From: Bacillus sp. ISL-45
Lineage (GTDB): Bacteria; Bacillota; Bacilli; Bacillales; Cytobacillaceae
Direction: 5' to 3'
Assembly: GCF_018613195.1 (NCBI RefSeq)
Contig: NZ_JAGGQQ010000005.1
Span: 277,593 to 341,592 of the forward strand
Length of the DNA stretch: 64,000 bases
The notes under the pieces were generated by a model that had not been told where the DNA came from, searched no databases, and saw nothing but the letters and a program-made list of their open reading frames with translations. Positions 16,588 to 48,364 of the stretch are shown here, piece by piece. The position numbers and the translations under genes are program-made. Numbering within the stretch: position 1 is the stretch's first letter; every line of letters begins with the position of its first letter.

Positions 16588-16700
16588 ATGACGGACAGAA
16601 ATGGCAGAGAAAACGGAGAAAATGTCCGTCATAGGTGTGATGACGGACAGAAATGGCCGGGAAAAGGAAAAAATGTCCGTCATAGGGGTCATGACGGACA
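16588..16700. repeat. tandem palindromic repeat, ATGACGGACA family
   Basis: Two full units and one half unit. Each full unit has ATGACGGACA at its left and TGTCCGTCAT at its right (16588-16597/16623-16632 and 16640-16649/16674-16683); a third left arm is at 16691-16700. Left arms repeat every 51-52 bases. The array lies between the nfo terminator and the 3' end of yqfT. Confidence 0.85.
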
Positions 16701-25671: not shown

Positions 25672-25709
25672 GTACCCTTATGCAGCAGCTTCGTCTCCCA
25701 TAAGGGTGC
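25672..25709. repeat. isolated relative of the 53-bp array unit
   Basis: GTACCCTTAT and ATAAGGGTGC surround an 18-base centre, the same 38-base geometry as each unit at 47470-48195. The downstream 11-mer GTGCTAATCAT (25716-25726) also follows the last array unit (48200-48210). Confidence 0.8.
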
Positions 25710-45872: not shown

Positions 45873-45895
45873 ATAATGAAAGGTGTTTGGTTAAT

Positions 45896-47356
45896 ATGGC
45901 AGAAAAAGTAACGCATCCCGTACATGAGAACCTAAAAGAAAATATTAAGTTTTTAAGAGAAGAACTCGGAATTGGCAAAAGTTTTGATGTCATCCAGCTG
46001 GACGTCGAGTACGCTGGCAGAGAAATGGCATTGTTTCTAGTTGATGGATTTGTAAAAGATGATATCCTGCTCTATATCATGCAATTACTGGCGAAGCTTG
46101 AGCCAGGAGCATTGGACGTGGAAACCCTCAAGAAGCTGGTCAAGACGTACATACCTTATGTAGAGGTAGAAACGACTGACGATCTTGATAAGGTAGCGGA
46201 TATGGTGTTGGCCGGCCCAACGGCACTAGCGGTAGATGGAGTCGCGGAAATCATCCTGATCGATGCAAGAACCTATCCTGTCCGAGGACCGCAGGAACCA
46301 GATACAGAAAGGGTAGTAAGAGGTTCGAGAGACGGGTTCGTGGAGACATTGGTCTTCAATACTGCGCTTACAAGAAGGAGAATCCGTGACCGCACTTTAA
46401 GAATGGAGTATCAGCAGGTAGGCAGGAGGTCGCAAACCGATATAGTGGTCTGTTACATAGAAGATATTGCTGATCCCGAAATGGTCAAGAAAGTAAAGGA
46501 CTCCATCAGTAAGATTGATACGGACGGATTGCCGATGGGGGAGAAAACAATCGAGGAGTTTATCTCGGGACAGCATTGGAATCCATTTCCCACAGTGAGG
46601 TATACAGAGCGGCCAGATACTGCGGCAACCCATTTGTATGAAGGGCATGTCTGCATCATTGTTGATGGATCACCCAGTGTCCTGATTACTCCGACAACCT
46701 TTTGGCATCATTTGCAGCATGCCGAGGAGTACCGAAATAAACCGCTTGTCGGTGCATATCTGAGAATGGTACGGTTTATGGCTGTTTGGGCATCTTTGTT
46801 TTTGCTTCCTTTATGGTATCTGTTCGCAGTCAAACCCGATTTGCTGCCTGAAAAGATGGCCTTTATTGGCCCGAATGATCCTGGTCAAATTCCTTTGTTT
46901 TTACAGTTTTTCCTAATTGAAATTGGAATCGATATACTCAGGATGGCCGCGATTCATACACCGACCTCCCTGGCAACGGCGCTTGGCCTTGTCGCTGCCT
47001 TGATGATTGGGCAAGTGGCGGTCGAAGTTGGCCTTCTTACAAATGAAGTCATCCTTTACCTTGCAATCGCGGCAATTGGAACCTTCGCAACTCCAAGTTA
47101 TGAAATGAGCCTGGCAAACAGGCTTGTAAGGATATTCCTGCTTATATTGACTGCAGCATTCCAACTATACGGATTCCTGATTGGGATCGTGCTGTTCATC
47201 ATCTTGCTCGCAAGAATGAAATCCTTCGGTGTACCTTACTTGTGGCCGTTCATTCCTTTCAACCCGAGGGCGTTCCGCGACGTCCTCGTCCGGTCACCCA
47301 TTCCACTAAAGAATAGAAGGCCGCGGATATTGAAACCGCAGGATCCAGATCGGTAA
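45896..47356 (+). CDS. spoVAF: SpoVAF/GerA-type spore germination protein
   Basis: Integral membrane protein of the GerA-A/SpoVAF family, 486 residues. A cytoplasmic N-terminal domain of about 280 residues includes VEIILIDARTYPVRGPQEPD-like and VVRGSRDGFVETLVFNTALTRRRIRD; four to five TM helices follow (VWASLFLLPLWYLFAV; FFLIEIGIDILRMAA; ALGLVAALMIGQVAV; ILLILTAAFQ region). The absence of gerB/gerC neighbours and the sequence favour SpoVAF, a germination enhancer. ATG 45896 preferred over TTG 45887. Expression in the forespore is expected but I found no clear sigma-G promoter. Confidence 0.87.
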   Translation: MAEKVTHPVHENLKENIKFLREELGIGKSFDVIQLDVEYAGREMALFLVDGFVKDDILLYIMQLLAKLEPGALDVETLKKLVKTYIPYVEVETTDDLDKVADMVLAGPTALAVDGVAEIILIDARTYPVRGPQEPDTERVVRGSRDGFVETLVFNTALTRRRIRDRTLRMEYQQVGRRSQTDIVVCYIEDIADPEMVKKVKDSISKIDTDGLPMGEKTIEEFISGQHWNPFPTVRYTERPDTAATHLYEGHVCIIVDGSPSVLITPTTFWHHLQHAEEYRNKPLVGAYLRMVRFMAVWASLFLLPLWYLFAVKPDLLPEKMAFIGPNDPGQIPLFLQFFLIEIGIDILRMAAIHTPTSLATALGLVAALMIGQVAVEVGLLTNEVILYLAIAAIGTFATPSYEMSLANRLVRIFLLILTAAFQLYGFLIGIVLFIILLARMKSFGVPYLWPFIPFNPRAFRDVLVRSPIPLKNRRPRILKPQDPDR

Positions 47357-47405
47357 GATAGAAGAGCAGCACTTGTACATTTCAATAGAGTTTGTATACA
47401 ATCTG

Positions 47406-47436
47406 AACACCTGACAGCATTGTCAGGTGTTTTATT
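47406..47436 (+). terminator. terminator after spoVAF
   Basis: Stem AACACCTGACA/TGTCAGGTGTT with GCAT loop, then TTATTT. Confidence 0.9.
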
Positions 47437-47469: not shown

Positions 47470-48195
47470 GTACCCTTATGAAGGTGCAGCGCATTTGATA
47501 AGGGTACAATTAAGCGAGAAACGTACCCTTATGAAGGGCAAACGCAGTCTATAAGGGTACAATTAAGCGAGAAACGTACCCTTATGAAGGGCAAACGCAG
47601 TCTATAAGGGTACAATTAAGCGAGAAACGTACCCTTATGAAGGGCAAACGCAGTCTATAAGGGTACAATTAGGCGAGAATCGTACCCTTATGAAGGGCAA
47701 ACGCAGTCTATAAAGGTATAATTAGGCGAGAAACGTACCCTTATGAAGGGCAAACGCAGTCTATAAGGGTACAATTAAGCGAGAATCGTACCCTTATGAA
47801 GGGCAAACGCAGTCTATAAAGGTATAATTAGGCGAGAAACGTACCCTTATGAAGGGCAAACGCAGTCTATAAGGGTACAATTATGTGGGAATCGTACCCT
47901 TATGAAGGTGCAGCGCATTCGATAAGGGTACAATTAAGCGAGAATCGTACCCTTATGAAGGGCAAACGCAGTCATAAGGGTACAATTAGGTGGGAATCGT
48001 ACCCTTATGAAGGGCAAACGCAGTCTATAAAGGTATAATTAAGCGAGAAACGTACCCTTATGAAGGGCAAACGCAGTCTATTAGGGTACAATTAGGCAAG
48101 AATCGTATCCTTATGAAGGGCAATTACAGTCTATAAGGGTACAATTAAGCGAGAATCGTACCCTTATGAAGGGTAATCCAAACACATAAGGTACA
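47470..48195. repeat. 14-unit tandem array of 53-bp palindromic units
   Basis: Left arms GTACCCTTAT begin at 47470, 47523, 47576, 47629, 47682, 47735, 47788, 47841, 47894, 47947, 47999, 48052, 48105 (GTATCCTTAT) and 48158: every step is 53 bases except one of 52. Each unit is a 10-bp left arm, an 18-base centre (mostly GAAGGGCAAACGCAGTCT), the right arm ATAAGGGTAC, and a 15-base linker AATTAAGCGAGAAAC. Arms are perfect inverted repeats in most units. No coding potential, no unique spacers. The last unit is diverged. The gap from 47357 to 48364 holds only this array, the spoVAF terminator and the yqgQ promoter. Confidence 0.97.
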
Positions 48196-48286
48196 TTCGG
48201 TGCTAATCATATTAAGCATGATTTCGAAAATCTTAACAAACGCATAAAACGCTTTCGTATTTGTCATAAAATCTTCTCCAGCATAC

Positions 48287-48315
48287 TTGAGGAGGCATTG
48301 AGTATCCTTTATACT
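48287..48315 (+). promoter_or_regulatory. SigA promoter for yqgQ-glcK
   Basis: TTGAGG (48287-48292), 17-base spacer, TATACT (48310-48315), about 50 bases before yqgQ. Confidence 0.7.
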
Positions 48316-48364
48316 TAAGTAATGGAAACATGCTCTAATTTTCACAAACATTGAGGGGATTACA

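Follow-up and report, generated by a model that had tools for sequence, protein, structure and literature searches.

A 14-unit satellite array between spoVAF-like and yqgQ-like genes of Bacillus sp. ISL-45 and its candidate NERD/zinc-ribbon partner

The array of 53-bp period in the spoVAF-yqgQ gap of Bacillus sp. ISL-45 is probably the DNA half of a protein/repeat system. The array consists of 14 palindromic units and lies in a stretch of 64,000 nucleotides of contig NZ_JAGGQQ010000005.1, here called the window. We regard it as probably one of the dispersed members of a satellite family, itself part of a chromosomal system of a NERD/zinc-ribbon protein and arrays of ca. 52-bp units. As proposed here from sequence, such a system would comprise a protein of ca. 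300 amino acids that joins a NERD domain (PD-(D/E)xK nuclease-like) to a zinc ribbon, and that protein's own array of inverted half-sites in units of five helical turns. NERD genes of this kind adjoin such arrays, related proteins have related repeats, the ortholog of the focal NERD gene co-occurs with the focal repeat family and single genomes carry several pairs. The catalytic and zinc-ribbon residues of the proteins are conserved, the units are helically phased and the arrays have dispersed to other loci. The original prediction, made from the window alone, is partly supported; the NERD/zinc-ribbon gene lies outside the window and was invisible to it.

The focal NERD gene stands beside an array of the same family at dacB and is found in exactly those genomes that are rich in units. 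In the genome of Bacillus sp. ISL-45 (G000) it encodes a protein of 317 amino acids with a NERD domain and four zinc-ribbon cysteines. The Pfam NERD model (PF08378) matches with an E-value of 1.1e-15 and 58.5 bits (curated cut-off 22.1), while no Y1 transposase match is found in the protein in Pfam at E up to 1. In an alignment of 51 sequences, E47, D79, K93 and the four cysteines are kept in 51/51 and an acidic residue (E/D) at position 91 in 50/51. A PDB profile search with the protein gave one weak match, to a zinc ribbon (E 0.57). Among 21 Mesobacillus genomes, G000 included, an ortholog is present in 15, precisely those with at least 29 units; it is whole in 14 (80-100% identity) and split over two frames in G011 (85% and 69%). 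The genomes lacking it are G018 (10 units) and G006, G014, G002, G007 and G009 (0 units each; G009 is only 66% complete). This co-occurrence has a Fisher p of 1.8e-5 without correction for ancestry. A 53-bp array lies 3' of 13 of the 15 orthologs; G004 has less than 100 bp of flank and G011 shows none in ca. 1.2 kb. Viewed from dacB, units adjoin the gene in 14 of the 19 genomes with dacB, ranging from one unit at a contig end to 21 units, and in 12 of these 14 the NERD gene shares the contig of dacB (separated from it by an insertion in G016), G003 and G004 having it on a different contig. The five array-free dacB loci (G006, G018, G014, G002 and G009) consist of 48-380 bp with a terminator up to the next gene and have no NERD gene.

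The focal family is confined to Mesobacillus among the genomes searched. A search for the arm motif in the genome and its relatives, suggested as a check in the original prediction, finds 101 units in G000 (up to 3 mismatches, 18-bp loop; 0 with the reversed pattern), gives 22 exact units when loops of 12-24 bp are allowed, and detects the family in 16/21 Mesobacillus genomes with 10-171 units each. Units thus occur genome-wide with conserved arms, and the objection that they might be restricted to this locus with freely varying arms fails. In 172 genomes of the family outside the genus, a search allowing 2 mismatches gave 0-2 matches each, like the reversed control (0-3), and viral contigs yielded no match to the arm pattern. 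Single units in four loci (L030, L043, L045 and L061, from Desulfobacula twice, Paludibacter and Bifidobacterium) were treated as chance, as was one weak match in G006, which departs from the full arms at 4 positions. In a SpoVAF gene tree rooted at its midpoint, G014, G002, G007 and G009 are basal, while the array-free G006 and the array-poor G018 are nested among array genomes, with weak support in the G018 clade. The history of family and NERD ortholog would most simply be one gain followed by two separate co-losses.

Related NERD genes are accompanied by arrays of their own. We considered Mesobacillus paralogs with 36-48% identity, 20 of the 21 among the matches listed for G000, G019, G018 and G006 (G006:C1:369240 was excluded), and 20/20 have a tandem array of period 51-52 directly 3', with sequences unlike the focal family. 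Seven more Mesobacillus NERD genes from other genomes all have a 3' array, giving 27/27 distinct non-focal genes. G000 itself carries the focal family, five paralog-adjacent arrays (L211-L215) and, dispersed elsewhere, two arrays of another type, and G006, which is without the focal family, keeps other NERD/array pairs. Among genomes from the order's other genera, 31/64 have a homolog (E up to 1e-20). The best locus was taken from 30 of them, and 22 of these loci carry an array of period 51-53 within 900 bp 3' of the gene. Distant NERD genes of the same genus (21-26% identity) have such an array in 0/9 cases, a tenth locus giving no match; six of the nine loci hold a 40-42-bp repeat elsewhere. 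Control loci totaling 266 kb contain 0 non-focal arrays of period 49-56, and the window together with the focal-array loci (187 kb) contains 1. The periods of 60 NERD-adjacent arrays are 52 in 43, 53 in 13 and 51 in 4.

Protein and repeat sequences vary together. Protein identity and unit similarity are correlated with a Mantel r of 0.72 over 53 gene/array records (reached in 0/2000 permutations), and r remains 0.57 over 41 records when the focal family is left out (0/2000). The record set excludes duplicates L201, L203 and L210 as well as L186 and L200. Some gene ends in it lie too far 3', which produced a few negative gaps and false in-frame stops and cost L231 and L255 their arrays. An array was recorded for 60 genes, and the Mantel set leaves out seven of them that carried an in-frame stop flag. 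Non-focal analyses used 45 records for helical phasing and arms and 41 for the Mantel correlation.

The units in the window show the anatomy of paired half-sites. Each focal unit is composed of a left arm GTACCCTTAT, an 18-bp loop, a right arm ATAAGGGTAC and a linker of 15 bp whose ends, TT..AA, are conserved. As predicted, 14 left arms follow each other at steps of 53 bp (12/13) and once 52 bp; over the whole family 214/234 steps are 53 bp. The left arm is exactly GTACCCTTAT in 13/14 units, the one at 48105 reading GTATCCTTAT. The original statement that each is paired with ATAAGGGTAC 18 bases further on is too strong, since the right arm is exact in only 9/14; it reads ATAAAGGTAT in three units and ATTAGGGTAC in one, and is cut short in the last. 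The loop is 18 bp in 12/14 units and 17 bp in two. Both arms are exact in 8 units, where 0 are expected from 100 dinucleotide-preserving shuffles. Tandem Repeats Finder reports a period of 53, 13.4 copies and 90% matches. The loops of the ninth and first units are unlike the rest, so the array has at least two unit types. Across the family, units are homogenised within arrays and loops are shared or similar inside one array, in agreement with the earlier observation that there are no unique spacers. The accompanying statement that the array has no frame is correct except for a 68-amino-acid open reading frame on the minus strand (48145-48351), which covers the last unit and is the only listed frame touching the array.

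The consensus of the family locates the constraint in the arms. It was derived from 44 of 56 arrays, after removal of the four loci taken as chance and of arrays in which fewer than two units have an 18-bp loop. The arms CCCTTAT and ATAAGGG carry 1.6-2 bits per position and the linker ends TT and AA ca. 1.5-1.7 bits, the loop carrying 0.03-1.2 bits, mostly below 0.7. From the conserved arms and linker ends it follows that each unit is symmetric about two dyads, of which the loop contains one and the linker the other; GTACCC forms the outer arm, with AATn before it. The A/T content has a 10.6-bp period as its largest component (31% of power), equal to five turns per unit, which bears out the proposal that all palindromes face the same side of the helix. 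Even the variable loop is rich in A/T at its centre (0.80 vs 0.45 in shuffled loops, with a maximum of 0.58 in 2000 shuffles), and the observed 10.6-bp power is reached by 0/1000 loop shuffles. Non-focal units behave alike: in the 45 analysed the A/T content completes five cycles per unit (z 5.5 relative to shuffles), and 58% of them have inverted arms with a score of at least 7, compared with 3.8% of shuffled units drawn from all 60 records.

Arm pairing does not point to RNA. Sixteen arm and flank pairs have a covariation score of 0.092 against a shuffled mean of 0.106, with 468/500 shuffles as high, so that what is constrained would seem to be a site read in double-stranded DNA and not base pairing in RNA, and we reject an RNA hairpin as the main constraint. 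The arms look like protein half-sites and not RNA stems. To this extent the protein-binding array put forward in the original prediction is supported, binding itself being something we infer. Transcribed arrays could still act as structured RNAs, namely as small RNAs, sponges or 3'-end stabilisers and terminators: 52-nt repeats of Bacillus coagulans are reported from RNA-seq data by Subirana and Messeguer (PMC8161180, PMC8625621), and arrays lie at the 3' ends of genes. Besides the missing covariation, however, the focal array lies past a terminator. The array-free dacB loci had raised the idea that arrays replace terminators, which is not supported, as terminators are not rarer at arrays, with 12/30 array-facing 3' ends having one (counted by hand) and 16/32 window controls (p 0.46). 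We therefore judge an RNA function to be highly improbable.

The arms are also maintained within arrays. In 32 arrays with at least 3 internal units and at most 4 arm mismatches, a selection that slightly favours arm conservation, differences per site amount to 0.030 in the core arms, 0.175 in the loop and 0.178 in the linker middle. Arms hence vary ca. 6 times less than loops and fall below the loop in 29/32 arrays. This bears on the possibility that the arrays are neutral slippage minisatellites, with the NERD gene hitch-hiking as a repeat-tolerant gene. Unit numbers of 14, 5, 3 and ca. 1-2 at one locus across species, homogenisation within arrays and the persistence of units in G011 beside a split gene would all suit such an origin. 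It does not account for the slower change of the arms, for arms that hold genus-wide where loops do not, or for an association of NERD genes with arrays far over the control rate, and we think it just as improbable as an RNA function.

Focal arrays have dispersed between genes throughout the genome. The family occupies at least 22 places in G000, and 22 arrays or single units were examined with their flanks. None of these (0/22) lies inside a long gene; five wholly or partly overlap short, mechanically listed open reading frames (73-143 amino acids), which is taken as chance. The elements are thus scattered between genes like REPs, as the REP-like cluster of the original prediction implied. 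The alternative of a partition or segregation site is unlikely because of the at least 22 dispersed places, the freely varying unit number and the absence of the family in a close relative. Among 17 arrays with both neighbours known (home array included), 10 are in convergent gaps, 7 in tandem gaps and 0 in divergent gaps, and 6 of the 7 tandem-gap arrays are nearer to the 3' end of the upstream gene than to the start of the next gene. The 66 gene pairs of the window are 10 convergent, 47 tandem and 9 divergent. The convergent excess is significant (10/17 vs 10/66, p 4e-5) and the lack of divergent gaps (0/17) is within chance (p 0.08).

This placement would also suit nucleoid-architecture sites, in which phased A/T steps wrap a general protein such as HU, gyrase or another topology protein and the NERD gene is not needed. 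E. coli BIMEs are said to serve general proteins in this way. In line with such a role, the 10.6-bp A/T period is dominant, is kept in the variable loop and is present in unrelated families, and the excess in convergent gaps is as expected for it. A general protein, however, leaves unexplained why genes of one NERD subfamily stand beside arrays with sequences of their own, and why the focal family was lost in G006, which keeps other families. We consider this explanation unlikely, and it is the least unlikely of the alternatives to a dedicated NERD partner.

Many array positions are common to several species, where flanks align and unit numbers differ. Unit numbers at the spoVAF-yqgQ site are 14 in G000, 5 in G017 and 3 in G019, while G008 and G016 have one or two decayed units (the last four by eye). 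The units in G017 and G019 at the same place dispose of the objection that the array is an assembly artefact. In G011 the site holds units of a different loop type, and in the other 15 genomes no unit is found there by pattern, G003 being cut by a contig end. By eye, sites with and without the array differ beyond the array itself, an older terminator is broken and a clean target-site duplication is not seen. Within G000, the arrays L106 and L110 are paralogous copies, 87% identical over 420 bp and inverted. An exact search with the extended half-site gave 90/90 matches in G000 at known arrays or units, judged by position, and 0 with the reversed pattern; it revealed no autonomous element, although diverged ends would escape it.

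Several observations weigh against the assignment of the arrays to a NERD partner. AlphaFold models of two orthologs have a mean pLDDT (predicted local distance difference test score) of only 41. The co-occurrence of ortholog and family amounts to about one gain and two losses on a single-gene, midpoint-rooted tree. G011 retains 59 units despite its split ortholog, whose 2.2-kb locus (L200, C133; ca. 1.2 kb of it 3' of the gene) is without a unit; this genome may represent a recent loss, a sequencing error or arrays persisting alone. In the other genera, 4/30 loci have the array on the 5' side and 4/30 have none (L249, L251, L259 and L258, the last with a flank of only 210 bp), while the 22 with a 3' array include weak ones of 2.1-2.5 copies (L238, L250 and L255) or 65% matches (L245). 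The protein/unit correlation is carried by pairs above ca. 60% identity; the rank correlation over all pairs is 0.28, and below 50% protein identity units are as unlike as shuffled ones. The non-focal records are partly orthologs of each other, so the 45 units are not independent. Finally, most focal-family arrays, the one in the window included, are far from the NERD gene, and action in trans is therefore assumed.

NERD domains are known from defence proteins. The pair could accordingly be a defence or addiction module in which foreign DNA is the target of the NERD nuclease, with the chromosomal arrays serving as a label of self or keeping the enzyme inactive. The catalytic residues are kept, and the protein weakly matches the model of the MADS kinase MAD6 (E 0.0004; 19 bits, cut-off 460). 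Yet PADLOC yields only a weak Cas10a match (E 0.03), and no homolog was found on plasmids or phages; in viral contigs 87 stretches matched the NERD peptide pattern and none was confirmed. Paralogs with the same upstream-neighbour sizes recur at matching places in four genomes, suggesting vertical inheritance. A defence role as the main explanation is improbable in our estimate, if slightly less so than an RNA function or neutral slippage.

We thus favour a dedicated NERD/zinc-ribbon protein, which, judging from the architecture of the pair, would bind the paired arms and, with every unit on the same face of the helix, oligomerise along the array. Nicking or cutting by the nuclease in or beside units, followed by repair or slippage, may change the unit number and seed units elsewhere. 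The arms would be kept because only units readable by the protein are kept or spread. The swings in copy number and the dispersal fit a self-maintaining satellite. The pair may or may not benefit the cell; it might have roles in nucleoid order, transcription boundaries or defence.

The features of the window and the focal NERD gene are collected in Table 1. Dispersed 52-bp arrays of another family (TTCGGACA..TGTCYGAA) are found in G000 at L271:1531-2392 (contig C4) and L272:1218-2084 (contig C12), with 16.6 and 16.7 copies and no NERD gene in the 3-kb loci. A different dispersed repeat (GCGCCTAGCCCCTCGAGTCGCTT or a like string) occupies the spoVAF-yqgQ site in L131 (G015) and L132 (G012) and the dacB site of G002 (L184), as if both gaps accept repeats readily. 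Contigs C3, C10, C17, C18, C19, C22 and C24 of G000 end or start in arrays, and in several drafts NERD genes are only a few hundred bases from contig ends. It seems that assemblies break at the satellites, whose true length may exceed the assembled one. In a group of NERD proteins that are 72-88% identical, the array arms are TAGACATTT in G006 (L229) and TGTCCGATAGA or TCTATCGG in L213, L220 and L225, providing a natural case for mapping recognition residues.

Table 1. Positions of the focal array, its neighbours and related elements (window coordinates unless a contig is given).
Feature	Position	Strand	Remark
Focal array, 14 units, period 53	47470..48194	none	Dispersed copy within the focal family; start positions of left arms: 47470, 47523, 47576, 47629, 47682, 47735, 47788, 47841, 47894, 47947, 47999, 48052, 48105, 48158
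Ninth unit of focal array	47894..47931		Loop GAAGGTGCAGCGCATTCG, one base off the loop of the first unit (47470), unlike other loops
spoVAF-like upstream gene	45887..47356	+	Name from the original prediction; homolog in 21/21 genus genomes; anchor for finding orthologous sites in other genomes
Intrinsic terminator of spoVAF-like gene	47405..47435	+	Array lies beyond it
yqgQ-like downstream gene, 68 amino acids	48365..48571	+	Name from the original prediction; the next gene beyond it is 445 bp from the array
Single focal-family unit	25672..25709		Between two convergent genes; aligned place in G017 (L066) starts a 7-unit array
2.2-copy array, period 51	16588..16700		Arms ATGACGGACA..TGTCCGTCAT; seemingly another 51-53-bp family
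Focal NERD gene (outside the window)	G000:C21:99916-100866		Home array between NERD gene and dacB

A wider proposal, to which we give even odds, takes the 52-nt satellites of Bacillus and related bacteria as the DNA component of chromosomal nuclease/satellite pairs that would form a class not yet described. Every NERD/zinc-ribbon protein would read its own inverted half-site, form a filament on the five-turn units and maintain, lengthen and spread its array by controlled nicking. Many non-cross-reacting pairs would coexist in one genome under long vertical inheritance, either as self-serving satellites with a keeper or as a modular code for chromosome organisation. An unexplained class of Bacillus repeats thereby gains a testable partner, the question being whether a NERD protein binds, cuts or keeps its own array, and the gene family stands beside such arrays in Mesobacillus and in 26/30 other genera examined. 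If true, the proposal would supply a substrate for NERD zinc-ribbon proteins, an explanation of why contigs break in these genomes and a large natural set of protein/half-site pairs from which recognition could be decoded.

The system shares traits with several known repeat classes. Miniature inverted-repeat transposable elements have an autonomous element with the same ends, and the exact half-site search finds none in G000. CRISPR loci likewise are regular arrays of constant and variable parts; in the focal family the variable part is common or similar within an array, there are no unique spacers and the unit has inverted symmetry. Neisserial dRS3/NIME, pneumococcal BOX and mycobacterial MIRU elements are short intergenic repeats with conserved arms or modules and tandem copy-number variation; their unit sizes differ from that of the focal family, and we know of no NERD partner for them.

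Closest in form are the 52-nt repeats of PMC8161180 (Subirana and Messeguer 2021), and the earlier remark that no Bacillus element of this kind has been described needs amending in this respect: literature matches to the ATAAGGGTAC string are unrelated by title, and a class of 51-53-nt repeats is in print. The relevant passages of that paper describe "enigmatic" repeats of constant size and variable sequence in ca. 30% of the Bacillus species studied, propose a polymerising protein or small RNAs and note a lack of evidence for any protein that interacts with them. They resemble the arrays reported here in a unit of 52 nt (at times 51 or 53), variable and non-coding sequence, several families per genome, short sequences recurring in reverse within the unit and array lengths that vary between strains; the focal family has the same unit size of 52 +/-1 and stands among several families in its genome. 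What differs from these passages is the cognate NERD gene proposed here, together with the anatomy of arms, dyads and helical phase. The words NERD and nuclease are absent from the main text of PMC8161180 and PMC8625621, and nuclease from that of PMC6749651. Literature joining 'nuclease-related domain' with 'tandem repeats' was not found in the library searched, and none of the matches listed links NERD proteins to such repeats. The candidate protein partner is new; the 52-nt Bacillus repeat class is already described (PMC8161180).

In behaviour the system most resembles REP/BIME elements and their RAYT (TnpA-REP) genes (PMC2817692, PMC8266576), which combine dispersed intergenic palindromes with a gene beside its own repeat family and several such pairs. 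The focal family, too, flanks its own gene and is dispersed elsewhere. REPs are marked by a GTAG or CGTC tag at one end (PMC3733652), whereas the outer arm of the focal unit is GTACCC and carries neither. The focal partner is a NERD/zinc-ribbon protein with no HuH/Y1 tyrosine transposase match, and the unit is a double-stranded tandem repeat of ca. 52 bp with two dyads instead of a GTAG-tagged hairpin. On the simplest account, the pair would work like RAYT and REP with an unrelated protein, as an analogue and not a member of that family.
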